A program made the position numbers and the translations under genes. The notes beneath the pieces are model-generated. The model had not been told where the DNA came from. It saw nothing but the letters and a program-made list of their open reading frames with translations, and did not search any database. 64,000 nt of DNA from Bacteroidales bacterium (GTDB lineage: Bacteria > Bacteroidota > Bacteroidia > Bacteroidales > Bacteroidaceae), in assembly GCA_018064685.1 (NCBI GenBank), contig JAGHUS010000042.1:1-64000 (forward strand), in the 5' to 3' direction. Below, one piece after another: positions 3,370 through 36,623 of the stretch (its first letter is position 1; the number at the start of each line of letters is the position of its first letter).

Positions 3370-4516
3370 CGCCATGCTGGGTGTGGATGAAATTTTTGGA
3401 TGCTCCCTTCAGGTGCAGTAGGTTCATTACCATCTTGAACACAAGCAAAGGAATCTGCATTATTGCATAAAGGAGCTTCTTGCTGTAGAACTTGCCTGGT
3501 ATGCTCAGCAACATCGATGCGTAGAGCATGGACAGGACGATGCACCACTTGATGCCATACGTCCAACAACAAATACTTACCAGTATTGTCATAAAGGTGA
3601 CCAAGCACAGCAACATGCTGCGAGGTATGAGTGTTTGTTGTATGAATTTATCAATCAGGTTAAAGCGTTTGTTGCGAAGTGCTGTTGGTATCAGTTTGCC
3701 TAGCGAGATGAGCGAGTGAAGCTGGGCTGCTATCCATCGTTTACGTTGGTTCCCAAAGTTCTGCCCTGACTGTACCTTTTCGTCCAAAACTGGTAGTTGG
3801 TCAAGGAAGGCAATGTGGTGGCCTTCAAGCAGAAGAGCCTCCTCTAGTTCTTTGTCTTCGCCGGTTGTGGAGAGTTGCATTACATGGTCGCAGAACCAAA
3901 CATATGAGAAGCACATACCCGAGCCTATGAGTGCCGATGACATGCCTATCTGGTTATGTGCCTTGCGGAAGATGGTGTTGTTTATCTCCTCGCTGATGGC
4001 ATCCAAGAGCGCCACTGGTGTGTTCTGGTTCTTGGCCTGTCGATGTGCCTGCAACGCTATGGTGTCGGCATGGCAATAGGTGTTCAGCTGACTGAGGAAG
4101 TCGGGGTTGACATGATTGTCGGCATCCAGAATAACGATGAAATCATATTCCTCGTGTATGGAGTTGATGGCCAGCTGCAATGCTTTTGCCTTGGAACTGG
4201 GCGAATAGTTGGCTATAAGTGTAGTGATAGGGTATTGCTGAAGCTGAGTGTTGGTCTCGGGCTTCATGTGGTCGGACACAACAATCGTCTGGAACAGATT
4301 CTTTGGATAGTCCTGCTTGAGAAAGGACTGCACACTGTCGAGTATGACCTTGTCCTCGGCATAGGCGGGGAAGACAACAACAAATCGGTGTTTCTTCTCG
4401 TCTTGCTTCCTGTGCTTCGTTTCGGGCAGAAGGGATGCAATAGCAAATATGAATATGTATAGCACCGAGAAGGCGACTGGAATAAAAAGCAATATCTCTA
4501 TTATGTGTAGAATCAT
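3365..4516 (-). CDS. Glycosyltransferase family 2 (membrane)
   Basis: FPAYAEDKVI, ILDADNHV, GEDKELE, NQRKRW, C-terminal TMs. Confidence 0.85.
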   Translation of the reverse strand: MILHIIEILLFIPVAFSVLYIFIFAIASLLPETKHRKQDEKKHRFVVVFPAYAEDKVILDSVQSFLKQDYPKNLFQTIVVSDHMKPETNTQLQQYPITTLIANYSPSSKAKALQLAINSIHEEYDFIVILDADNHVNPDFLSQLNTYCHADTIALQAHRQAKNQNTPVALLDAISEEINNTIFRKAHNQIGMSSALIGSGMCFSYVWFCDHVMQLSTTGEDKELEEALLLEGHHIAFLDQLPVLDEKVQSGQNFGNQRKRWIAAQLHSLISLGKLIPTALRNKRFNLIDKFIQQTLIPRSMLLCLVTFMTILVSICCWTYGIKWCIVLSMLYASMLLSIPGKFYSKKLLYAIMQIPLLVFKMVMNLLHLKGASKNFIHTQHGE

Positions 4517-4629
4517 ATCTGCGTGTTTAAATTAATACTATAATGCATGCTTCATCCAACGTATTAATAAATTATCAGTATTAGGTATTTTCACTATTCA
4601 CTATTCACTAAAACAATGAGTTTACAGGG

Positions 4630-5808
4630 TTAGATGCTTGGGGCCTTACTCTTCTTCTTGAAAATCTTCTTTGCTATGCCGTTGTTCAACACCAGGTTGT
4701 ATGCACTCTGGAAGATCAGCACGGGGAGCAGTAGCATGGATTTCGTCCAGTTGCTGTCGACGATATAGTCGGGGGTGGCAAGGGCAAATGCAAAGGTGAC
4801 AATAAGGAATAGTGCCCACCATTTAAGTACCATTGTGAAGTAGATGAATGGTAAGAGTATACTCATAATGATGATTATTCCCATCATAATCATGCGCGGC
4901 ACCATTATCCATTGGAAGATCTTGTCGCTAAGACTCATGTTCCAATTCAGAATGGCTGGGAGTAGCTTCTTCAGGTTGGAGAAGAAGGTGGGTATTTGGT
5001 TCTTCACCCATCTTTTTCTTTTTCTTACAATCTCGGCACTCTTGCTGACGGGACGTGAGTAGAGGCAGATCTCGTCAATATAGTCGACAAAGATTTTTTC
5101 TTTCAAAAGCATTGCTTCCAGGCTTTTTACCTCGTCCTCGGAATCAATATTCTGGCTATTTCGCTTGTACCAGTCATAGTCAATGACTAGTCCTGAGGGT
5201 GAAAGGGCGGAGGGAAGACCCACTGCGACGTGACCTTTGCGGAAGATGCTGTTGTTAATCTCACCCATCGTGCTGGAGATGACGGACGCACTTGTTGGGT
5301 TTTGGATGGTACGGCAATGGAGTTGGAAGAAGCGGATGCCCGATTGTAGCACCTTGTTCACTTCGTAAAGGAAGTCGGCACTTACCGTCTCGTTCGGATC
5401 GATGAAGATAATCTGGTCGTATATCTTCATGTTCTGGAAGTTCTGTATCACGTACTGGTGCGCTCTGTTTCTGTTGAAGTTGTCATCTTGCATGCGTATG
5501 AGATGAACGGGATACTGGGCAAGCTTGATGGATTGCAAAGGTGTGAGTTTGTTTCCAACCACAACAATATCATAATCCTTCGTCTCGTAGTCTACCTTCA
5601 GCAGCGATTTTATCGTTTCGTCGATGTTGAGGTCGTAGGTCGTGCAGGTAGTGACAATCAGGAATCTTCCTTTCTTTCGGATTATACCCGTATCAATGCG
5701 CTGGTATCTGTTGGAAGAGAAGGAATAGAATAGTATGTATGTCACCGTTAGGGTAACAATCGCGAATAGCAATATGTCTAATATGTTAAGAATAATCCAC
5801 ATACTCAA
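4630..5808 (-). CDS. Glycosyltransferase family 2-like, diverged paralogue of the 3365-4516 product
   Basis: Same architecture (EINNSIFRKGH, RKRKRW) but DPN in place of DAD at the DXD position. Confidence 0.75.
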   Translation of the reverse strand: MSMWIILNILDILLFAIVTLTVTYILFYSFSSNRYQRIDTGIIRKKGRFLIVTTCTTYDLNIDETIKSLLKVDYETKDYDIVVVGNKLTPLQSIKLAQYPVHLIRMQDDNFNRNRAHQYVIQNFQNMKIYDQIIFIDPNETVSADFLYEVNKVLQSGIRFFQLHCRTIQNPTSASVISSTMGEINNSIFRKGHVAVGLPSALSPSGLVIDYDWYKRNSQNIDSEDEVKSLEAMLLKEKIFVDYIDEICLYSRPVSKSAEIVRKRKRWVKNQIPTFFSNLKKLLPAILNWNMSLSDKIFQWIMVPRMIMMGIIIIMSILLPFIYFTMVLKWWALFLIVTFAFALATPDYIVDSNWTKSMLLLPVLIFQSAYNLVLNNGIAKKIFKKKSKAPSI

Positions 5809-5854
5809 ATTGTTGGGTTGAAGGAATTATGATAGGGGTTGACCTAAGTCTTTG

Positions 5855-6769
5855 TCATTGAATGTGCGACGAGGTTTGATGGCGAAAATAGAAGTCTTTT
5901 ATACCTCTTAATACACTCTTGCATTGTTTTGTCTTACCTTTGACCAGGTATTTAGGAACATGTATGTTCAGTGCCACAAAGGTAAGGTAACAATAGCATA
6001 GCAAACGGCTGAAGCCTTCGCGGTTGCGCTTGGCGAAAAGCAGTCGGTTGCGGGTGAGATAGTACACCTTCATCGGACTGTCCGCTCCTACACTCTTGCT
6101 TTCTTTGTGGAAGATGGTTTGCGCTGGTTCGTACCATATCTCATATCCCGCCTTGATGATGTGTTCGCTCCAGTCCATTTCTTCGTAATAAAGAAAATAC
6201 CCGTCCCACATCATGCCCGCTTTTTCTATCACTTCGCGTTTTATCATCATGGCAGCACCATGGGCGAATGGGGTGGCATGAGCCTCGTTGTACTGTCCGG
6301 CTTCTTCTTCACCACATCCTATTCCGTAATTTCGTAGTGTGATCTTGCTCAGTGGCGTGAAGCCGGCAAACTGTATCTGACGGATTCCCCAAGTGAAACG
6401 GAGCTTGGGACATACCATGCCGATATTCTTCTTGCTTTCTATCCTCGATATCAAACAGTCCAGATTGTCCTCTTCAAGCAAGGTGTCGTTGTTGATAAAG
6501 AAAAGGTATCTGCCTTGTGCCTGAGGTATCGCCACATTGTTGCCTCCGGCAAAACCAAGATTCTTCTTGCTTGCTATTACAACGATGTCGGGATATCTGG
6601 ATGATAATGCCGTTGCTTCGTCTTCGCGTGATTGATTGTCGACTATCAATATCTCAAAAGATACTTTATGAACTACTCTCTTAATAGAGTCGATTAGTTC
6701 ACAAGTATCTTTGAATCCATTGTAGTTGATGGATATAAATGATATGTCATATTTATATTCCATTCCCAA
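5855..6769 (-). CDS. Glycosyltransferase family 2 (rhamnosyltransferase-like)
   Basis: ISINYNGFKDTCELI, VDNQSRED, NLGFAGGNNVAI, FINNDTLL, GYFLYYEEMDW. Confidence 0.88.
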   Translation of the reverse strand: MGMEYKYDISFISINYNGFKDTCELIDSIKRVVHKVSFEILIVDNQSREDEATALSSRYPDIVVIASKKNLGFAGGNNVAIPQAQGRYLFFINNDTLLEEDNLDCLISRIESKKNIGMVCPKLRFTWGIRQIQFAGFTPLSKITLRNYGIGCGEEEAGQYNEAHATPFAHGAAMMIKREVIEKAGMMWDGYFLYYEEMDWSEHIIKAGYEIWYEPAQTIFHKESKSVGADSPMKVYYLTRNRLLFAKRNREGFSRLLCYCYLTFVALNIHVPKYLVKGKTKQCKSVLRGIKDFYFRHQTSSHIQ

Positions 6770-6872
6770 ATCTTATATTGCATCATGCGATGCAGTATTA
6801 TGTTATTTCAACATCACGGTTTTACATGCTTCATCCTTGCTGCACGGTATTATGTTGCTGGCACCTCGTCTT

Positions 6873-8240
6873 TTACTTGACTTCTGTTGCCTCTGCCTCA
6901 ATAAGTTCCTTGTCTTTACGTTTTCTTTCTTCTGTTATTCTTCGGTCGATGTCCGGTCCGAGATAGACTAGCATAAGTTGACCGAAGAACAGGAAACAGT
7001 TGGGGAATTGTAACTGAATCTGGTTGGCATATCCTGCCACACACATTGCCGCGGCTCCACTGGCTAATCCTGCAAGGAGGCCTCTCAACTCGGGATCTTT
7101 TACGCGGAAGAAAACTATGTATCCGGCGTAGATGATGATTCCGAAGAATGAAAACAGGAAGATGTACTTGCCTAGATGTCCATAGTGTATGTTGACATAA
7201 ACCCAAGTAGAGTCGGGGGCAACAACCGAGAGGTAATAGTTACGGTTGCTTTGTGGTACATCGCCTCCACGTATTCCTGCACCTAAGCCTAGTGGCAGAT
7301 CGTTGATGTAGCTGTTCATGGCCTGCTGGTTCATTTCACGTACAGTCATTGATGCATCGTCCTTGCTGAAGGCACTTCGCATACGGCGTATCATGTTATT
7401 GCCCTGGCCTATGTTGGTAAATGCCATGATGAAGAAGAACACACCGCCGAACAGTATTGTTGTAACCAGTGCGGCTACTCTCTTTGATAGAACAGCATAG
7501 ACAACAGCACCCACTCCAAGGACGAAGATACCGGTTCGCGTACCAGAGGCCATCATTCCGTAGAGGGCACAGCAAGTCACAATGGCAAAGAACAGCTTCT
7601 CCTTCTTTATCTTGCAACTTAGTGTGACGGCTCCAAAGACTGCTGTCGTTGCTGCCATGTTACATCCGTAGTTGGCTGCGTCACTGAAGAGTGAGAAGTA
7701 ACGTATGATACCATTTACAAAGTGCGTCTTGCTACCACCCGCTGCCAGGAATGCGTTCTCGGCATAATCGAAGCCGATGTATTGCTGCATCAAGGTCTTG
7801 AGTGTACATATTATGACGCATACTCCCCAAATCTTGTATACAGTCTTTATCTGCTCCTTACGTACGAATATGGCAGCACATATCAGCATACCGTAGATAA
7901 CCTGTATGGCCATAGTTCTTATCTCGGCAAACCATCTTGAACTGATCGTGCCGAAATCGATCTCGGACGACATGTTGCCTACTTCCAGAAGGGAATATAC
8001 AACCCATGGGATGTAAAACCAAAGCATTGCACATGAGACACGGCTCACATTTCCCTTGTTGTTCTTGTCGCTTAAACTCTTTATGATGCAAATGAAGTAT
8101 AGGATTTCAACTGCTAGAGAGATGGGAATTGGTAAGCTGATGTACTTTACCAATCCCATCATAAAGAAGTTTATGACGAACAGAAGGTACCATGTCGAGT
8201 TAAGCCGACCTTCCTGTGGTATGATTCTGGATAGCGTCAT
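6873..8240 (-). CDS. O-antigen polymerase/ligase-like membrane protein
   Basis: About 10-12 predicted TM helices; position within the EPS cluster; 4-bp overlap with the next gene. Confidence 0.65.
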   Translation of the reverse strand: MTLSRIIPQEGRLNSTWYLLFVINFFMMGLVKYISLPIPISLAVEILYFICIIKSLSDKNNKGNVSRVSCAMLWFYIPWVVYSLLEVGNMSSEIDFGTISSRWFAEIRTMAIQVIYGMLICAAIFVRKEQIKTVYKIWGVCVIICTLKTLMQQYIGFDYAENAFLAAGGSKTHFVNGIIRYFSLFSDAANYGCNMAATTAVFGAVTLSCKIKKEKLFFAIVTCCALYGMMASGTRTGIFVLGVGAVVYAVLSKRVAALVTTILFGGVFFFIMAFTNIGQGNNMIRRMRSAFSKDDASMTVREMNQQAMNSYINDLPLGLGAGIRGGDVPQSNRNYYLSVVAPDSTWVYVNIHYGHLGKYIFLFSFFGIIIYAGYIVFFRVKDPELRGLLAGLASGAAAMCVAGYANQIQLQFPNCFLFFGQLMLVYLGPDIDRRITEERKRKDKELIEAEATEVK

Positions 8241-10393
8241 TTACGATTGTTGTTCTCGGTTGCTGTCAAACCTAATTGTGACATGCGGTATACAAAGTTC
8301 TTGAATGCTGTGTAGGGAGGCAGCTGACCTACATATTCCTCGACTGCATCTCGTCCTGCCTCAGTCAGGTAGAAGAAGAGGGTGTCCTTGTTCTCCAAAA
8401 CTGAGGTGAGGTGGTTCAGAGCCTTCTGGTCAATGTCCTTCCATGTTCTGTTGGCACGAGTTACCAGCAGGTTAATGGTTCCCTCGTTGAGCAGCTCGGT
8501 GGGAACTTCGTGCTCGTCCAGTGCGGGATATTCTACCAACAGCACTTCGTTGTTCTGAAGGTCGGGACAGAGGTCCTCAATGCTCTTTGCCATGATGTAC
8601 TTCTTGTCATCGGTAAGGAAGTCCTCATCATAGGTGAGACGGCGAACCTGCAGTCCAAGAGATGTCCAGAGGTCGTCCAGCTCATTGGCAATGTAGCTCT
8701 TACCGTTGCCCTCGCTGGTGCTGAGGAAATTGATTACGTTCTTGTGCTCGGTGTCCAGATAGGGTAGGATAGCCTTGCTGAGCTGGCGCAATGCCATGTC
8801 ATTTATTACCTTATTATATTTACGGTAGCGCAGAGTGCTCTCCTTGGGATAGCATCCAATGACTGGTGTGTCCGTAAGTTTCTCCGTTCGCATTCTGTCT
8901 CGCAGTGTTCTATCCAGCAATTCGATGATGTAGAAGAATAATGCCACGATAGCGAATGTGACAAGGAATGCCATGACGAGAATCATCAGACGATTGCTTG
9001 GCGCACTGTTCAAAGGGAACATAGGAGGATTGAGGACGCGCAGTGTAGCGGTTGTAAGCTGCAGATTGCGCTGACGAAGACGTGCTGCATTCAGTGCCTT
9101 CAGCATCTCCATGTAGTTGGCCTCAATAAATCCGATGTGTCTTTCCTTACGTCCTAAGGTAGCACCAATGGGGGCGAAATACATGAATTCATTCTGCAGT
9201 TTTGTGCGCATAACGTCCATTGCCTGCATCTCGGCCATAGTACCTTCTTGGCGAAGAACCTGGTCAAGCCACTGGTCGAGCAGAAGATTACGCTTGATAC
9301 CATTTGTAGTGTTCGATTCACCAGCAATCTCATAGGTTACGGTTCTGGTGTGCTCCTCGGCATCAGCAAGCTCACGTCTTGCCTCAGCAATCACTTCCTG
9401 AGCATTCTGGTCGTTTGTCTCTGCCATCAGTTCAAGGTTGGAGATTCTTGACTTTAGGCGTGAAATCTTGCTAAGGCTTTCTAGGAACTCCTCATTGCTC
9501 TTCAGCAGGTTGATACGGCTGCCCAACTGGTGTTCCAGATAGTCAATAATAGCTCGCTGCGACATTCTGGCCAGCAGCTGGTCGTTCTCCATCTTCTTGT
9601 GGTTTGCATCGGTAATAGCTACCTGCTTTGTCTGCTCACCATAGTTGATGATTCGTTTTGACACGTTGTATGCAATGAGGTCGTCCTCAGCACCGCACAG
9701 AATTCTGTAGAGACGATTTACTTCATTCTCGAAGAACTTGATTACGTTATTCGTTTCACCAAATCGTATCTCCTGATACTGGTTGATGAACTCTTCGTTG
9801 AGGATCTCCAGCGTGTTGTAGGCGATACCCGCATCATTACATGAATAGCCAATCTGAATCATGTCAGAGTTGCCCAACTGCACAACCTTCAATCTGCTTG
9901 AAATGTCGGGGATGCCAAAATAGACATGGTGTGACAACAACTGGTATACAAAGTTGTCGGACTTGGGAGCTGCATAGGCAGTAAGATTTTCCACTGTCTT
10001 GCTCTCGCTTCGCTTGTCAACCAAAGCAAGCACTTCATTCGGAGTGGAGTTCTTCAAGTCGCGGTAATGCTCGGCAAAGATGTAGTTGTTATCATGCTCA
10101 GTGTCACCATACATCAAGCATCTTGCCAACAAACGAATAGAAACTCGCTTGATGGTCTTTTCCGTGCTGATGATCAGCAGTAGGTTGGCCATGTTGACAT
10201 TACTGTTCGAGCCTACTGAACCTTCAATGCTGTAACCTGAGATGATACCCGTATAGATAGTTGTCTCGACGTTATAGAGTTTGTCCTCTTTTCTAGTCAA
10301 GAACCAAGCAACTACTACTGCAATTAAAGGTAAAATTACAAGGTACCAACGAATGCGATAAAAGAATCGCAGAATGTATCTTAAAAATTCCAT
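8237..10393 (-). CDS. Wzz/GumC-like polysaccharide co-polymerase with degenerate BY-kinase-like C-terminal domain
   Basis: N-terminal TM, long coiled coil, second TM before LLDRTLRD, then STSEGNGKS P-loop-like motif. Confidence 0.82.
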   Translation of the reverse strand: MEFLRYILRFFYRIRWYLVILPLIAVVVAWFLTRKEDKLYNVETTIYTGIISGYSIEGSVGSNSNVNMANLLLIISTEKTIKRVSIRLLARCLMYGDTEHDNNYIFAEHYRDLKNSTPNEVLALVDKRSESKTVENLTAYAAPKSDNFVYQLLSHHVYFGIPDISSRLKVVQLGNSDMIQIGYSCNDAGIAYNTLEILNEEFINQYQEIRFGETNNVIKFFENEVNRLYRILCGAEDDLIAYNVSKRIINYGEQTKQVAITDANHKKMENDQLLARMSQRAIIDYLEHQLGSRINLLKSNEEFLESLSKISRLKSRISNLELMAETNDQNAQEVIAEARRELADAEEHTRTVTYEIAGESNTTNGIKRNLLLDQWLDQVLRQEGTMAEMQAMDVMRTKLQNEFMYFAPIGATLGRKERHIGFIEANYMEMLKALNAARLRQRNLQLTTATLRVLNPPMFPLNSAPSNRLMILVMAFLVTFAIVALFFYIIELLDRTLRDRMRTEKLTDTPVIGCYPKESTLRYRKYNKVINDMALRQLSKAILPYLDTEHKNVINFLSTSEGNGKSYIANELDDLWTSLGLQVRRLTYDEDFLTDDKKYIMAKSIEDLCPDLQNNEVLLVEYPALDEHEVPTELLNEGTINLLVTRANRTWKDIDQKALNHLTSVLENKDTLFFYLTEAGRDAVEEYVGQLPPYTAFKNFVYRMSQLGLTATENNNRK

Positions 10394-10403
10394 AGTGATT
10401 GAA

Positions 10404-11222
10404 TTATTTCTTATCGGTGTAAGTAATCTCTACAATTGCATTTGTAATAATAGGTGTATGCGTGATGATCTCCAGAACCAGGATGTCAGTCGTGATGGTT
10501 GACTGAAGGTCTTGGTATGCTTGAGTCACATTGCTCTCCCATCTCTTGGTCTCTGCCAGGTCTCTTACTGTGGCATCACCCATCTTGAATTCTTCCTTTG
10601 TCAGCAAGCCGGCACCCTTATAGGCAGCAGCATTCTCACTGGCGGTCTTTAGCGAAATAAGGTTGTTTGTAATGCGCACATATAAAGTAGCGATGGTTTG
10701 CTTCAGTTGTTCGTAGGCAATGTCTTTGGCCAGCTGTGCTTTTTCGGTCTGCAGTCTTTGACGCTTCACTCTGCCTTTCAGGTCCAGTACATTGTCCAAA
10801 GGCACATTTGCCCTGGCACCGATGTTCCAGTAGTGCTGCTTTGATCCTACATACTGATAATAAATAGGTGTAGCTACATTCTCAGATGATCCGTAGTTGT
10901 CCATTACGCCATACGAATATGATGCATATCCAGCCAACCATTCCGACCATGATTTCTTCTCCTTCTTGAGCAGTTCTCTCTGGAATGCCTCTTCTCGTGC
11001 CAATTGTTCGATTGAGGGATTGGATTTAGCATTTTCGAACAAAAGGCCCAAGGGTGGCAGTTTGAAAGACGAATAGTCAATATTCTCACCTCCGTTTTCG
11101 GTGTCCGTGTCAAAATAGCCGGCAATAATGCCTTTGTTTTTGTCTGTCTCCTGTGCATGCACGTTGTGTGTAGCAAGTACACCAAGCAGCATTAATGATA
11201 GAAACTTAAGTTTACCCTTCAT
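10404..11222 (-). CDS. Short TolC/outer-membrane efflux-like protein (about one repeat)
   Basis: Signal peptide; LPPLGLLFENAKSNPSIEQL and coiled-coil KRQRLQTEKAQLAKDIAYEQLKQTIATLYVRI resemble the TolC repeat, but only 272 aa. Confidence 0.65.
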   Translation of the reverse strand: MKGKLKFLSLMLLGVLATHNVHAQETDKNKGIIAGYFDTDTENGGENIDYSSFKLPPLGLLFENAKSNPSIEQLAREEAFQRELLKKEKKSWSEWLAGYASYSYGVMDNYGSSENVATPIYYQYVGSKQHYWNIGARANVPLDNVLDLKGRVKRQRLQTEKAQLAKDIAYEQLKQTIATLYVRITNNLISLKTASENAAAYKGAGLLTKEEFKMGDATVRDLAETKRWESNVTQAYQDLQSTITTDILVLEIITHTPIITNAIVEITYTDKK

Positions 11223-11257
11223 TTTGTTTATTTGTTTTGCGTTATTTTTTCAGTTTA

Positions 11258-12412
11258 TTATACGTTTTCTTTTTGGATGAATGCTGTCAAGGTTTTAAGC
11301 AGAATCTTGAAATCAAGCTTCATTGAATATGTCTGTCCATACTTGATGTCCAGTTGTTTACGCTCTTCCGCCGACAGCTTTCCGGCATCACCACGTTTCT
11401 CTACCTGCCACAAACCTGTCAGTCCGGCAGGAGCAATGAATCGGTCAATGCTGTCGTCGTGTGTCAGCTTCTCTGCCTCGTAAAGGGGCAATGGACGGTT
11501 TCCGACAACCGACATGTCACCTTTTAATATATTAATAAGCTGAGGCAATTCATCAATGCTGTATTTGCGGATGAATCGTCCCACCTTTGTGATTCGGGGG
11601 TCGTTTTCCAGTTTGACAAAGGCATTCTCCGTTTCGGTCTGCTTTTGTTTGAGGAAGTCACTTTCAGATATGATGGAATTGTCGTCAACCAAGAATTCTC
11701 CATTCATGTCAAGCGTCATCATGTTTTCGACAGAAAGCTCCTTGTTTTCTGTTTCCTCATTTGCCTCATTAGCATACTGGTTCAGCTGGTTGAATTCTTT
11801 CAGTCTCTTGTCAGCACCAATATACATGCTTCTAAACTTGAGGAAGTTGAATATCTTGTAGTTAGCTCCCACACGTTTGCTGGAATACCACACCTTGCCC
11901 GGGCTTTCAATGTAAATGGCAATGGCCGTGATGATAAATACGGGCGAAAGAATGATTAAAGCAAACAAAGAGAAGAAGATGTCGAACATACGTTTCCACA
12001 AAGGAATTCGGAATGTCAGCAACTTTTTCTTCATCACAACATCGTTGATGAGTTGCGACTCATGATTCTCGACAAACTGGATCTTCTTGTGTAGCTCTTC
12101 GATTGTAGGACAAGCCGACAACGTATCGTCTATACCTGCGTTATGATAACTCGTAATTTCTTCTTTTGAAAGAGTGTCGATCAAAAGAATCAAGTAGGCT
12201 TTTGGTGTCTTGTGGTGCAGGTATGAGATGGCTGTAAGATCTTCGTTTTGAGTCTTTTGTTCAAACAGGACGATAAAATTCACTTTAGGCTCTGCGGTGC
12301 ACATCTGCTCAACTTCCAGGTAATTCATTGCTTGTCTGACAATCTGGCCAGGCAAGTATTGAAGTCGCTTCAGTGTTTCTTCGTTTTTACCAAAGTATAT
12401 AATTTTAGTCAT
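11258..12412 (-). CDS. Bacterial sugar transferase (phosphoglycosyl transferase, WcaJ/PglC-like) with N-terminal receiver-like region
   Basis: KRMFDIFFSLFALIILSPVF, SSKRVGANYKIFNFLKFRSM, IRKYSIDELPQLINILKGDMSVVGNRPLPLYEAE, GLTGLWQV. Confidence 0.88.
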   Translation of the reverse strand: MTKIIYFGKNEETLKRLQYLPGQIVRQAMNYLEVEQMCTAEPKVNFIVLFEQKTQNEDLTAISYLHHKTPKAYLILLIDTLSKEEITSYHNAGIDDTLSACPTIEELHKKIQFVENHESQLINDVVMKKKLLTFRIPLWKRMFDIFFSLFALIILSPVFIITAIAIYIESPGKVWYSSKRVGANYKIFNFLKFRSMYIGADKRLKEFNQLNQYANEANEETENKELSVENMMTLDMNGEFLVDDNSIISESDFLKQKQTETENAFVKLENDPRITKVGRFIRKYSIDELPQLINILKGDMSVVGNRPLPLYEAEKLTHDDSIDRFIAPAGLTGLWQVEKRGDAGKLSAEERKQLDIKYGQTYSMKLDFKILLKTLTAFIQKENV

Positions 12413-12450
12413 CCTTCTTGAAAGCTTTAAATGCGAATTGACAAGAAATA

Positions 12451-12813
12451 TCAGATAATTTTCTTAATTCTGATTTTAAGTTCCATTGGGTTGAATGGCT
12501 TCACGATATAGTCGGAAGCACCAATTTCAAGAAGCTTGATGCGTTCTGTTGTGCTATCCTCAGAACTCAGCATTATGACGGGAATGTGCTTGAACAAGTC
12601 ATTCTGCTTTATCCATTCTAGGAATTCGTCGCCTCTCATACCCGGCATTCTGATGTCGGTGATGATGAGGTCGGGAGTGTTGCCTTCCTGCAGCCATTTC
12701 ACACCCTGCAAGCCATCAGGAAGCCATGTGCACTGGAAATCGGTTGTGAGATATATGCTTAAAACTTTAGCAATTGTTTCCTTATCATCAAGAATTAAAA
12801 TTTTTTTCTTCAT
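12451..12813 (-). CDS. Stand-alone response-regulator receiver protein
   Basis: ILILDDKETI, LIITDIRMPGM, IPVIMLSSED, GASDYIVKPFNP. Confidence 0.9.
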   Translation of the reverse strand: MKKKILILDDKETIAKVLSIYLTTDFQCTWLPDGLQGVKWLQEGNTPDLIITDIRMPGMRGDEFLEWIKQNDLFKHIPVIMLSSEDSTTERIKLLEIGASDYIVKPFNPMELKIRIKKII

Positions 12814-19435: not shown

Positions 19436-19565
19436 TGTGTTTGAAATGATAGGTTATTATATATTTGACGGATAAAGCACGGCTTGGTTTAATACGGCTC
19501 TCGTTTGTGTGGAATTCTATTAAATGATGAAAGCCACTCTACTGAGTGGCTTTAATCTTCTTGTG

Positions 19566-23096: not shown

Positions 23097-23606
23097 TTAC
23101 TCGTGCACCTCGACGTTGTCGTCGCCATCGTCGCCGCTCTCCTTGCGCTTGTCGGCTTCGATCTTCATGGTCTCGGCCTGCTTCTTGAGGGGAGGCACCT
23201 CGGTGAACTCGCATTCGCTGAGCATCTCCTTGAAGGCCTTGCCGGGGGTGAAGCGCAGTTCGACGGCGTCGATGTCGGCAGCCGAGAATACAGGCTTGAT
23301 CTTGGTCTTGGGGTCGGCAACGCTCTCAGCCACACCATTGCTGACGAGCTTGACGTTGAAGGTGCCCAGGATGCCGAGGTCGACGATGTTGCCGTCGCAG
23401 ATAAGCTCGGTAGTGCAGTCTACGACATCCTCCAGCACAGCCTTGATGGTACCGCGGCTGAAGGGGCTGCCATGGTTGGCCATGTGCTTGGCCAGTCCGT
23501 TGATGTCGACGCGTCCTCGGCTCTGCGAGGTGGCATAAGTCTTCTCGGGTTCGGTGGGGTCCTGGAGGTTCTTACGTGTCACTTTTACATACTGAATCAT
23601 TCCCAT
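23097..23606 (-). CDS. Bacteroidetes HU-like DNA-binding protein with acidic C-terminal tail
   Basis: MIQYVKVTRKNLQDPTEPEKTYA; SRGTIKAVLEDVV; VDLGILGTFNVKL; FTPGKAFKEML; tail DDGDDNVEVHE. Confidence 0.8.
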   Translation of the reverse strand: MGMIQYVKVTRKNLQDPTEPEKTYATSQSRGRVDINGLAKHMANHGSPFSRGTIKAVLEDVVDCTTELICDGNIVDLGILGTFNVKLVSNGVAESVADPKTKIKPVFSAADIDAVELRFTPGKAFKEMLSECEFTEVPPLKKQAETMKIEADKRKESGDDGDDNVEVHE

Positions 23607-23989: not shown

Positions 23990-24019
23990 CGCAACACCGC
24001 AACATCGCAACAGCCAAAA
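23990..24019. repeat. GCAACAnC iteron block, left arm
   Basis: CGCAACACCGCAACATCGCAACAGCCAAAA. Confidence 0.85.
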
Positions 24020-24119
24020 GTAAGGACTTCCCCTTTGATTTTACGTTCCAACCGATTTACCTTTCACACGTCGAGATGGCTCAATCCGGTACCTCCACGC
24101 GAAACAATGATTTTTTCCA

Positions 24120-24290
24120 TCAACAACAACTATAAATTGGTTTTTTAATTATTATAAATAATGATATATATTACTTTAAATAAGTATAATTTTACTATAA
24201 ATACGTATATATATTATTATAAATTAGTATATTAAATATTATATATATATTATTATATAAGTATATAAGTAATAATTGATGATAGACTTT
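24120..24290. other. Extreme AT-rich tract between inverted iteron blocks
   Basis: About 170 bp composed almost only of A/T (repeated TATATATTATTATA / ATAAGTATA words). Confidence 0.85.
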
Positions 24291-24318
24291 TTCCCCGAAC
24301 CCTAGTTGTTGGCTCATA

Positions 24319-24348
24319 TTTGGCTGTTGCGGTGTTGCGGTGTTGCGG
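24319..24348. repeat. GCAACAnC iteron block, right (inverted) arm
   Basis: TTTGGCTGTTGCGGTGTTGCGGTGTTGCGG; reverse complement of the left arm with one mismatch over about 28 bp. Confidence 0.85.
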
Positions 24349-24457: not shown

Positions 24458-25474
24458 ATGGCAATAAGCATTATTTCGGAAAACTTGAAAAGTGAGGTTT
24501 TCGCAAAACATCTGAACGAAAGCCTTTTTGAATTTATGTACAAACAACTGGACGGAATTAACCCAAATAAGTTAGGTTACACAATGGTAGAATTATGGCG
24601 TGATGCCAAGGACATAGCCATGAAGGTTATTACGTCGAAGAGAGACTTGACGATGTTCGATTTTGCTATTTCTATTTTCAACAACCAGTTGAGTGAGTCA
24701 TTAGGAAAGGATCCCGATAGCCCATTATGGGATAACGAAATGTTTTTGGATGGGACATATCAAACCAATGGCGAGATCAAATCGAAAATCAAAAAATGCA
24801 TACGTGCTATCATCCTTTGCCATTATTATTTCGTTCAGCCGGATAAATTGCAGACAACGAAAATACCCTTCAATGGCTTGGACAAAGTTAAAGAGGCATT
24901 GGAAAATGGTGAAATCGTCCACGATTATGATTACGCCTGTGGATGTGGCCTGGACGATGACGCATCGCACGCGTCAGATGGCCCCATTCCGCTTGACAAG
25001 GCTGTCGACATCATTGAACGTGCGCAGAACAGATTCCCCGGCGGCATTATTGCCTTCTCGCAAGTGGATAAGGTGTACGACCAGTTAATTGAGGAGGCTA
25101 AAGACAATGAGAACGAGGCAACCGACGAGAACCTGAACGCCGACAACGTGGCAACCGAAGAGGAGATTAAGCCGGAAAACGAGGCTAGGGTAGAGGAAGT
25201 GAATGATGAAGGCGATGAGTACACAAAGCTGCCTAGAAAGGTGGTGCTGGCGGTTTTATTCAGAATGTTGGAAGGGATGGGTGTTGACTTCGAGAAACGA
25301 GGCGTAAAGAAATTGGCGGGTGAACTTGTCGAGGCACTGACCGAGGAGCGAATCCCATCGCGCAAGGCGGCTGAATATTTCGGGTTGGACGACTATAATC
25401 CGGCTTATCATGCCGATGAGGTAGCGAAGATGAACCGCCTATTGGCTGGTATTGGATTGAACATTCATTTGTGA
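24458..25474 (+). CDS. Hypothetical protein, 338 aa, with acidic central linker
   Basis: Full-length ORF with promoter; no recognised family; linker EEAKDNENEATDENLNADNVATEEEIKPENEARVEEVNDEGDE. Confidence 0.75.
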   Translation: MAISIISENLKSEVFAKHLNESLFEFMYKQLDGINPNKLGYTMVELWRDAKDIAMKVITSKRDLTMFDFAISIFNNQLSESLGKDPDSPLWDNEMFLDGTYQTNGEIKSKIKKCIRAIILCHYYFVQPDKLQTTKIPFNGLDKVKEALENGEIVHDYDYACGCGLDDDASHASDGPIPLDKAVDIIERAQNRFPGGIIAFSQVDKVYDQLIEEAKDNENEATDENLNADNVATEEEIKPENEARVEEVNDEGDEYTKLPRKVVLAVLFRMLEGMGVDFEKRGVKKLAGELVEALTEERIPSRKAAEYFGLDDYNPAYHADEVAKMNRLLAGIGLNIHL

Positions 25475-25767: not shown

Positions 25768-28200
25768 ATGAAAATGGAATTTATTTCTGCTCATACTGTT
25801 TGCCTCGACAACACGCTGCCCAACCGCTTCGACATGGCCGACACGTGTTTCGCCGGCACCCACCTTGCCTCTCGCGAGGCTTTTGAGATGATTCTCGACG
25901 CCCCCCAAACGGCCGAGATTGTAACACGTGTGGCAAGCATATTCGAGGGCTTCGGTGTTGACACCCCCTCCGACGAATATCACCGCATGAAGAACGAGGC
26001 TTCGACCTACAAGAAGCGTCTGCCCGTGTTGTTGCCCCATGCACATTTCACCCACGGCAAGCGCAAGAACGAGGACGCCGAGCTGTCGCCCTGGGTAAGC
26101 ATGGACATCGACGGACTTTCGGGCGTGTTCATGAAGAATCTTGTCGAACTCATCATCAAGCGGTCCGAGGAATTGCGCATCCCGCTTGCCTTCTTCTCGC
26201 CCTCGCTCAATGGCGTCAAGCTGCTGGCACAACGTCCGTCAAACCTCACGCTGGAACAGGCTCAGATGTGGCTTGCCCACGAACTGGGTCTTGACACGTA
26301 CGACCACACGCACGATGCCGCCCGGTGCGTCTTCATCACACGTCGGCACGACCTCATCCTGTACAACCCCGAAATGCTGTGGGCCGACGAGGTGTCCGAG
26401 ATAAGGCTGGAAGGCGACCTTGACGCACTGGGCGTCCTGCCCAATCCCGCGCGCACCGTTGCCGCCGTGGCTCAACCGCAGCCAACGTCTGCCCCCGACG
26501 CACCCGCCAAGCCCGCACCCGGCGCAACGGACGAGGCTGCCGACGTGATGTCTGCCATCCGCTCTACCCATTACGACGCGGCGATCGAGTTCAACGAAGG
26601 CATCCGCTACAGCCAAATCTTCGACCATTACGTCAAGGTGTTCTGGGGTGGCGAGAAGCCCAAGGAGGCAGCCGGATGTCGACACGAGACGTTGCTGAAC
26701 TGGGCGCGCGAGGTGGCTTCGCTGTGCGACTGGAATGCCGTGTTCATCAAGCGTGTTACACCCCTTCTGGGCAAGGACGAGGAGGAGATAAACAAGATCG
26801 TTCGCGACGCGCTGAACTTCAAGCAGCGTATAAGCAAGCCCGGTGTGGCTTATCGTATGAAACAGGCTCTGAAAGCGGCCCGGACGGATGCCATGCTGGC
26901 GAAACAAGGCGGCACGATGGACATGCCTCCTACCATGCCCGAGAAGTTGCCACCCCTGCTGGCACACGTCAGCAAAAACGTCATCAACCGTTACAAGCCC
27001 GCCGTGTGCGAGGCGGCATTTTCGGCCCTCGAAACGTATCTGCACGGTGTTCAGTTCACCTTCGTCAACGGCCAGGATTACGAGGCCACCTTCTCGACCA
27101 TTGTCATCGGCGAGATGAGTGTGGGCAAAGGCTGCATAAAAAAGCCTGTCGAAATCATTCTGCAACGTATTGCCGACCGCGACGAGCCGAACCGCACGAA
27201 GGAGGACGAGTGGAAGAAGAAAAACCCCGTGAACAAGTCGAAGAAGACGCCTCGACCCACCGACATCGTGGTGCAACTGCTGGCCAGCAACTGCACCGAG
27301 GCCATCCTGAACCAGCGTTTCATCGATGCCGACAGGAACGGCGGGTACTTCCTGCACATACAGGTCGACGAGATTGATGCCCTGCTGAATCTGACCGCGA
27401 AACACAAGCCCGAGGACGTGCATCTTCTGCTGCGCGAGGCATACGATTGTGCTGCCGACGGACAGGAGCGTTTCGGCGCGGAAAGCGTGAGCGGTAAGGC
27501 TCACCGGCGTCTGGTCATACTGGCTTCGTGTACGCCCTCGCGCCACAGGGAATTCTTCAAAAAGGCGTGTATCGACGGAACGGTGACCCGACTGAACGAA
27601 GTGTACGTGCCCGAGGGGGGTGACAACGAGTCGCGCCCCGTGTTCAAGAAGTACGACGACAAGTTCACGCTGAAACTCAACCCCTACCTGGACAGGCTCG
27701 AGGCGGCCAAGGGCATCATCAAGCTCAAGAAGGCTTTGGACTTGGCCCGCGAACTGGACGAGGAGGCTGCCATAACCAAGTCGCTGACCAACAGCAAGGC
27801 CTATGGCATCCTGTCGCGACGTGCCGTGCAGAACGCCTTCATCAAGGGCATGATGCTGTACGTGGCACATGGCAAGTGGAACAAGGAGATTGAGGATTAC
27901 GTGCGATGGTCGTTCAAGAACGACATGTGGACGAAGATGCGATTCCTGGGCGAGATGGTGGAGGAGAACATCGAGAAGGACCGCGAAAGCCACAGTACCG
28001 TCCTGAAGGATATGCTGCAGAAACTGCCCGACCCCTTCACGCGCGAGGATTACAACAACATGCGTGTGCTTGAGGGGAGAAAGGACGACGGGGGTTCGCA
28101 GCTTAGGAATTGGATTTCGCGCGAACTTGTCGAAAGGGATGAGCTGAACGCTGATGTTTATTTCAAGACCGACAAGTACAAGCGTAGGCAGCAGGATTGA
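25768..28200 (+). CDS. BT4734-like/VirE N-terminal (primase-like) plus DUF3987 (P-loop) protein
   Basis: SMDIDGL (DxD), FFSPSLNGVKLL, HDAARCVFI; VIGEMSVGKG Walker A-like; LHIQVDEIDAL Walker B-like. Confidence 0.82.
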   Translation: MKMEFISAHTVCLDNTLPNRFDMADTCFAGTHLASREAFEMILDAPQTAEIVTRVASIFEGFGVDTPSDEYHRMKNEASTYKKRLPVLLPHAHFTHGKRKNEDAELSPWVSMDIDGLSGVFMKNLVELIIKRSEELRIPLAFFSPSLNGVKLLAQRPSNLTLEQAQMWLAHELGLDTYDHTHDAARCVFITRRHDLILYNPEMLWADEVSEIRLEGDLDALGVLPNPARTVAAVAQPQPTSAPDAPAKPAPGATDEAADVMSAIRSTHYDAAIEFNEGIRYSQIFDHYVKVFWGGEKPKEAAGCRHETLLNWAREVASLCDWNAVFIKRVTPLLGKDEEEINKIVRDALNFKQRISKPGVAYRMKQALKAARTDAMLAKQGGTMDMPPTMPEKLPPLLAHVSKNVINRYKPAVCEAAFSALETYLHGVQFTFVNGQDYEATFSTIVIGEMSVGKGCIKKPVEIILQRIADRDEPNRTKEDEWKKKNPVNKSKKTPRPTDIVVQLLASNCTEAILNQRFIDADRNGGYFLHIQVDEIDALLNLTAKHKPEDVHLLLREAYDCAADGQERFGAESVSGKAHRRLVILASCTPSRHREFFKKACIDGTVTRLNEVYVPEGGDNESRPVFKKYDDKFTLKLNPYLDRLEAAKGIIKLKKALDLARELDEEAAITKSLTNSKAYGILSRRAVQNAFIKGMMLYVAHGKWNKEIEDYVRWSFKNDMWTKMRFLGEMVEENIEKDRESHSTVLKDMLQKLPDPFTREDYNNMRVLEGRKDDGGSQLRNWISRELVERDELNADVYFKTDKYKRRQQD

Positions 28201-28244: not shown

Positions 28245-28275
28245 CGCAACAGCGCAACAGCGCAACAGCCAAAAA
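28245..28275. repeat. GCAACAGC x3 iteron block
   Basis: CCGCAACAGCGCAACAGCGCAACAGCCAAAAA just after the stop at 28200. Confidence 0.8.
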
Positions 28276-36412: not shown

Positions 36413-36446
36413 CCGCAACACTGCAACAGCGCAGCAGCAAAAAACA
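36413..36446. repeat. Degenerate GCAACAnC iteron block
   Basis: CCGCAACACTGCAACAGCGCAGCAGCAAAAAA just after the stop at 36401. Confidence 0.7.
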
Positions 36447-36459
36447 TGCATGTACACGT

Positions 36460-36569
36460 CATGAACCATTCACGCGCACTTCCTGAACCATGCACGCGCA
36501 TTTCATGAACCATACACGTGCACTTCATGAACCATGCACGCGCATTTCATGAACCATGCACGCGCCATT
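36460..36569. repeat. 22-bp tandem array, 5 copies
   Basis: CATGAACC starts at 36460, 36482, 36504, 36526 and 36548; unit CATGAACCATGCACGCGCATTT. Confidence 0.9.
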
Positions 36570-36623
36570 GGTGTCTAAGCCACAACGACTTTGTAATAAT
36601 TTTATTTAAAAACATTCATAATT

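Follow-up and report, generated by a model that had tools for sequence, protein, structure and literature searches.

In a 64,000-nucleotide stretch of a Bacteroidales draft genome (the window), two blocks of short tandem repeats face each other across an A/T-rich tract, which raises the question of what this arrangement does and which protein reads it. The answer that we favor, with a probability of roughly 60%, is that the inverted blocks and the A/T tract form the origin-like module of a chromosomal cassette, whose predicted initiator is the 810-aa primase-helicase encoded downstream. From sequence comparison, we conclude that the blocks are candidate initiator-binding iterons, arranged in a layout similar to that of SaPI rep/ori.

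The forward (F) iteron array (23990-24018, + strand; CGCAACACCGCAACATCGCAACAGCCAAA) consists of three GCAACANC units plus GCCAAA. Its inverted partner, the R array (24319-24348, - strand), matches it in reverse complement at 28 of 29 positions. The first-pass annotation had described exactly this, two facing 29-bp arms of three 8-bp units each, as well as the A/T-rich tract between them: the 300-bp gap is 74% A/T and includes 150 bp with 92% A/T (24128-24277), a putative unwinding element. This core is the highest A/T 150 bp in the window, where the best non-overlapping stretch elsewhere reaches 81%. Tandem iterons adjoining an A/T-rich element of the unwinding type are what is expected of an iteron origin. 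A third array, exact and in F orientation (28245-28275, + strand), was missed in the first pass; it lies 45 bp 3' of the stop codon of the 810-aa gene. A degenerate fourth array with two mismatches (36413-36450, + strand) is not clearly within the cassette; its region (36415-36570) lies 3' of a GH97 gene, with tandem repeats of the ATGAACCATGCACGCGCATTTC type coming after the array. Searching with (GCAACANC)3 and up to three mismatches, we find six overlapping matches in the window compared to 0.01 expected from shuffled sequences. With up to two mismatches, the 3.8-Mb draft genome has no copies beyond these four, all of them on this contig. The exact (GCAACANC)3 sequence occurs in one other genome of the genus (RGIG7250) and in no other among approximately 400 family genomes.

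On one side of the module, the gene of an HU-HIG family DNA-binding protein (169 aa; 23097-23606, - strand; PF18291, E=4e-19) reads away from it. HU-HIG genes also adjoin modules in L114 and L260, and HU homologs are present in L101 and L271. HU-HIG domains were reportedly predicted by Burroughs et al. in 2017 to act in conflict with mobile elements. On the other side are a 338-aa protein (24458-25474, + strand), which has no match in Pfam, NCBIfam or PADLOC and no relative among the loci compared, and the primase-like gene already recognized from the sequence, which encodes an 810-aa BT4734-like AEP primase with a predicted DUF3987-type helicase (25768-28200, + strand; PF08800, E=1.3e-6). The main neighbors scanned are ordinary sugar/metabolism genes and one superfamily-1 helicase, with a tRNA-Pro at 19565, and none of the main window genes scanned from 13 to 36 kb is an integrase.

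In the 810-aa protein, AEP motif I (hhhDhD) is present as MDID, with both Asp residues invariant in an alignment of 10 homologs, and the alignment also identifies a Walker A (GEMSVGKG) and a Walker B (VDEID) motif. The PF13148 (DUF3987) model is matched by the Hallella homolog; for the window protein, the helicase part is assigned by alignment. AEP motif II (sxH) is not conserved (NGVK in the window, EGLR in Hallella, for a consensus GLH in the aligned set), which makes primer synthesis by this protein doubtful. A structural model of the whole protein from one sequence (pLDDT 35) and another of the C-terminal 95 aa from three sequences (pLDDT 56) are both too poor to use, and the profile of the BT4734-like family has no match in the PDB. 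BT4734-like primase-helicases are found in 69 of the 139 genomes of the genus; almost none of their relatives turn up in phage and viral collections or in plasmid records, 72,556 of which gave no match. The text available of PMC5862659 places the BT4734-like proteins among the AEP families that fall into none of the named clades; the window protein belongs to this family by its PF08800 match, and that part of the paper describes no origin, iteron or helix code for it. A literature search that covered few of the subscription journals found no published function for BT4734-like primase-helicases and no publication tying them to iterons or origins; an earlier description of the link may exist.

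The same layout (F, A/T core, R, genes, primase-helicase, F) appears in ten loci, always in one polarity, from Prevotella-like and other Bacteroidales. Nine of them come from one scan (the window, L016, L336, L337, L340, L350, L204, L207 and L237), and the tenth is found in Prevotella Tb.RUG.396 (L114 and L053, on one contig). The iteron itself differs from locus to locus (GCAACANC, GCTACACC, GCCACACC, GTCGCACC, TTTCACAG, TTAACAG and ATGACAG), and it is uniform within each locus. The nine modules that we aligned all have an A/T-rich core even though their iterons and sequences differ. Cores peak at 0.82-1.0 A/T per 50 bp, compared to 0.78-0.88 for the best of their surroundings; the RGIG7250 core is a weak case, with 0.82 versus 0.80.

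The two ends of a cassette also agree in iteron type. For the Hallella/P. lacticifex modules, in which the iteron is a heptamer CG-XYZ-CA, we name the types after the central triplet (CAA, CTA, CCA, TAA and TCG). In every cassette with both ends read as complete, the type of the 3' array is that of the upstream module, as in the window, RGIG7250, Tb.RUG.396, H. mizrahii (TCG), RUG318 (CTA; CCA) and P. lacticifex (CTA), and also in loci with unrelated iterons, L204 (TTTCACAG), L207 (TTAACAG) and L237 (ATGACAG). In L338, a TAA array lies 3' of the gene, and no other array is detected except a CTA array 10 kb upstream, at the contig start. A tandem array of 7-11-bp units is present at the 3' end (from -60 to +260 of the stop codon) of 73 of the 97 BT4734-like genes, compared to 12% of control windows; since this control rate reflects the many minisatellites in these genomes, some of the 73 arrays are not iterons. 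In relatives with 60% identity, the array often runs across the stop codon. No array is found directly 3' of the gene for the three BT4734-like paralogs in the window's own genome or for several relatives in the order, and for many clade-B loci we detect the 3' array without an upstream module. In L188 (9259-9582), a long 9-bp minisatellite of the ACTCGGATT type adjoins a stretch matching a BT4734-like protein.

The cassettes of relatives carry defense genes between the arrays. These include type II restriction-modification sets (HpaII-like with a methylase and MutH-like with a methylase), a NERD nuclease-like protein, a Schlafen-group helicase and Fic; a BRO/KilAC antirepressor, DUF3127 and a phage-type lysozyme are found there as well. 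In the sister cassettes L336 and L338 of one genome, type II restriction-modification sets (at 10224-12688 and 4400-7784, respectively) are located between the origin-like module and the primase-helicase. Following the primase-helicase and its array in L351-L371, L376, L378 and L382, there is often either a small gene that begins with MELILKRIAKRK..YTIGRL or a similar sequence or a lysozyme/peptidase-like gene, which recalls a lysis module.

Modules also occur on their own. In a wide scan, A/T cores bracketed by facing arrays are also found in Hallella mizrahii, several Prevotella and one Bacteroidales MAG; most matches outside the Bacteroidota have no facing pair, and these were set aside. 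Some standalone modules have no adjoining primase gene, and some sit between housekeeping genes. RGIG7250 has three modules of approximately 159 bp, 92-94% alike, at unrelated sites, and the similarity of its C45 copy to the other two ends at the outer array ends. The H. mizrahii module has 14, 19, 11 and 9 BLAST matches in four Hallella/Prevotella genomes, and the Hallella/P. lacticifex family as a whole has many dispersed copies with a conserved core. Dispersed modules keep the A/T core in both Hallella and RGIG7250. The first reading had named, as the sign of a dispersed repeat only, blocks of this kind flanking many unrelated genes with no A/T tract; this pattern is seen neither in this genome nor in the approximately 400 family genomes scanned. 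The two arms of a copy are usually of the same type. The exceptions are found in P. lacticifex, where the left and right arms of L266, L262, L264 and L261 are of different types, a pattern that an exchange of arms between modules via the shared core would give. For some module types in G504 and G506 (CAA, for example), no primase-helicase of the matching type is detected in the draft genome concerned; they are possibly orphaned, or the assembly may be incomplete. In the Bacteroidetes MAG CPBay_Spr30G08_47, (GCAACANC)n arrays appear on many contigs (L032, L038-L040, L048, L058, L072, L073, L080, L083, L117 and L138), some as close diverging pairs.

The dispersed modules argue for some mobility, and the rival explanation that survives best, unlikely as we judge it to be, is that the arrays are the terminal or subterminal repeats of a mobile element, the standalone F-A/T-R modules being MITE-like and moved by the type-matched primase-helicase. 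The scattered RGIG7250 copies, with the sharp outer limits of the C45 copy, and the repeated BLAST matches of the H. mizrahii module speak for it, as does a module in front of rarA that is present in two species and absent from a third. Against it, modules upstream of S1 and rarA are present or absent with neither a clean empty site nor a target duplication, and at the window, alignment with the closest relatives is limited to the esterase gene, the flanks not being syntenic. The window cassette includes neither transposase nor integrase. Because the arrays run F..R around the module and R..F around the gene block, one model of terminal inverted repeats cannot cover both.

As to the protein that reads the iterons, the 338-aa and the HU-like proteins had been proposed as binders; covariation points instead to the C-terminal helix-turn-helix region of the 810-aa protein (residues 753-800; 28024-28167, + strand), which by covariation and alignment is the likely iteron-binding part. 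The Hallella-group proteins have near-identical helicase cores, and their last approximately 55 residues differ where the iterons differ. The CTA proteins of two species (G506 and G505) both have STARTIICRWKEAGW, the TAA proteins of two species (G506 and G507) both have AAARMIIKRWREAGW, and the CCA and TCG proteins differ in the C-terminal helix. We scanned all variable protein columns for coupling to iteron type, which was read by rule from the terminal unit, with five loci set or confirmed by hand (the window, L016, L337, L341 and L356). Pooling clades A and B by position was rejected: an alignment anchored on a tryptophan places the key residue at W-5 in clade A and at W-1 in clade B, and for that reason the clades were tested apart. 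In clade A, the top of 231 variable columns is residue 407 in L354 numbering (z 6.4); residues 404 and 410 in this helix take second and fourth place, the runner-up (z 4.0) being three residues away. In clade B, the top of 416 variable columns is window residue N781 in the C-terminal helix (z 6.7), over a high background of relatedness in which the second column has z 5.9. The TAA iteron occurs with Met at the helix residue in 12 of 12 cases, and CTA with Thr in 5 of 6. The mutual information is 2.02, compared to 1.05 +/- 0.10 under a clade-stratified shuffling that does not model the full tree. Because related sequences inflate permutation tests, we give more weight to the rank of the helix column, to its recurrence in two clades, and to the comparison of proteins with near-identical backbones.

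In a regulatory alternative, less probable still than a mobile element, the module is an operator: the 810-aa helix-turn-helix or HU-HIG would repress divergent promoters in the A/T tract, and the third array would allow looping. In its favor, the module has the HU-HIG gene on one side and the divergently transcribed 338-aa/810-aa pair on the other. However, the strongest constant among loci is an array behind or across a stop codon, where an operator would be unusual; the putative C-terminal reader belongs to the same polypeptide as a primase-helicase; and modules are also found between housekeeping genes. Already disfavored, and very improbable in our estimate, is a REP-like dispersed repeat without specific function, which the many array-bearing contigs of CPBay_Spr30G08_47 would suit but which is at odds with only four copies in this genome and gives no reason for the type matching over 4-8 kb or for the covariation with a protein.

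The origin-like reading is well supported by comparison: loci share the layout but not the sequence, and changes in the iteron go with changes in the helix of the putative initiator. The first-pass annotation had already read iterons and A/T tract as a possible origin; conserved layout and covarying helix strengthen that part, and its choice of binder and its two-array plan have been replaced. In the mechanism that we propose, the C-terminal helix-turn-helix would bind the GCAACANC units, a step that the covariation strongly suggests. By the layout and by analogy with SaPI and SCCmec, rings would then load on either side of the A/T core and unwind it, and either the AEP domain or a host primase would start synthesis. 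The third array, of which presence and type are observed, may act as a second initiator site marking the far end of the cassette. Amplification could serve the mobility or the copy number of the defense genes in relatives, with copy-number change, excision or transposition as possible outcomes. The two direct F arrays of the window are approximately 4.26 kb apart, and we predict that recombination between them could produce a circle with the module and the 338-aa and 810-aa genes.

A broader proposal is tentative, and we lean somewhat against it in its entirety: these would be integrase-less chromosomal replicons of Bacteroidales in which a primase-helicase recognizes its own iteron type by a simple residue-to-triplet code (TAA-Met, CTA-Thr, TGA-Lys, TTG-Ser) and amplifies or mobilizes defense cargo located between type-matched arrays, and diversification of types would stop cross-reaction between sister cassettes of one genome. 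If the arrays are origins of the BT4734-like primase-helicases, these would be replicons whose specificity code can be read, and one could test whether they copy or move the neighboring restriction-modification and other defense genes. One helix residue that tracks an iteron triplet is in itself an unusually clean natural experiment in protein-DNA recognition.

Among known systems, MITEs and REP elements resemble the modules of a few genomes in being short, dispersed and inverted at the ends; here, in contrast, the arms are tandem iterons, and the type changes between copies while both arms usually remain alike. Iteron plasmid origins similarly combine tandem iterons, an A/T-rich unwinding element and a cognate initiator (putative in our case), but the cases seen here are on chromosomal contigs, with no match in the plasmid records. 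In SaPIbov1, two iteron sets are said, after Ubeda et al. in 2012, to be oppositely oriented around an A/T region. Both SaPI Rep and SCCmec Cch2 use a C-terminal domain to bind iterons that adjoin their genes (PMC7581432). The SaPI (PICI) rep/ori and SCCmec Cch2 systems resemble the window cassette in having a self-loading initiator of the primase/helicase type, a C-terminal DNA-binding domain and short iterons nearby, features that are predicted here. They differ in that the window initiator belongs to another family, BT4734-like AEP plus DUF3987-type; that no integrase is seen near the window cassette; and that here the module is upstream and a second array downstream of the initiator gene. 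In the Bacteroidales cassettes, unlike in SaPI and SCCmec, close relatives differ in iteron type, and the putative reader helix changes with it.
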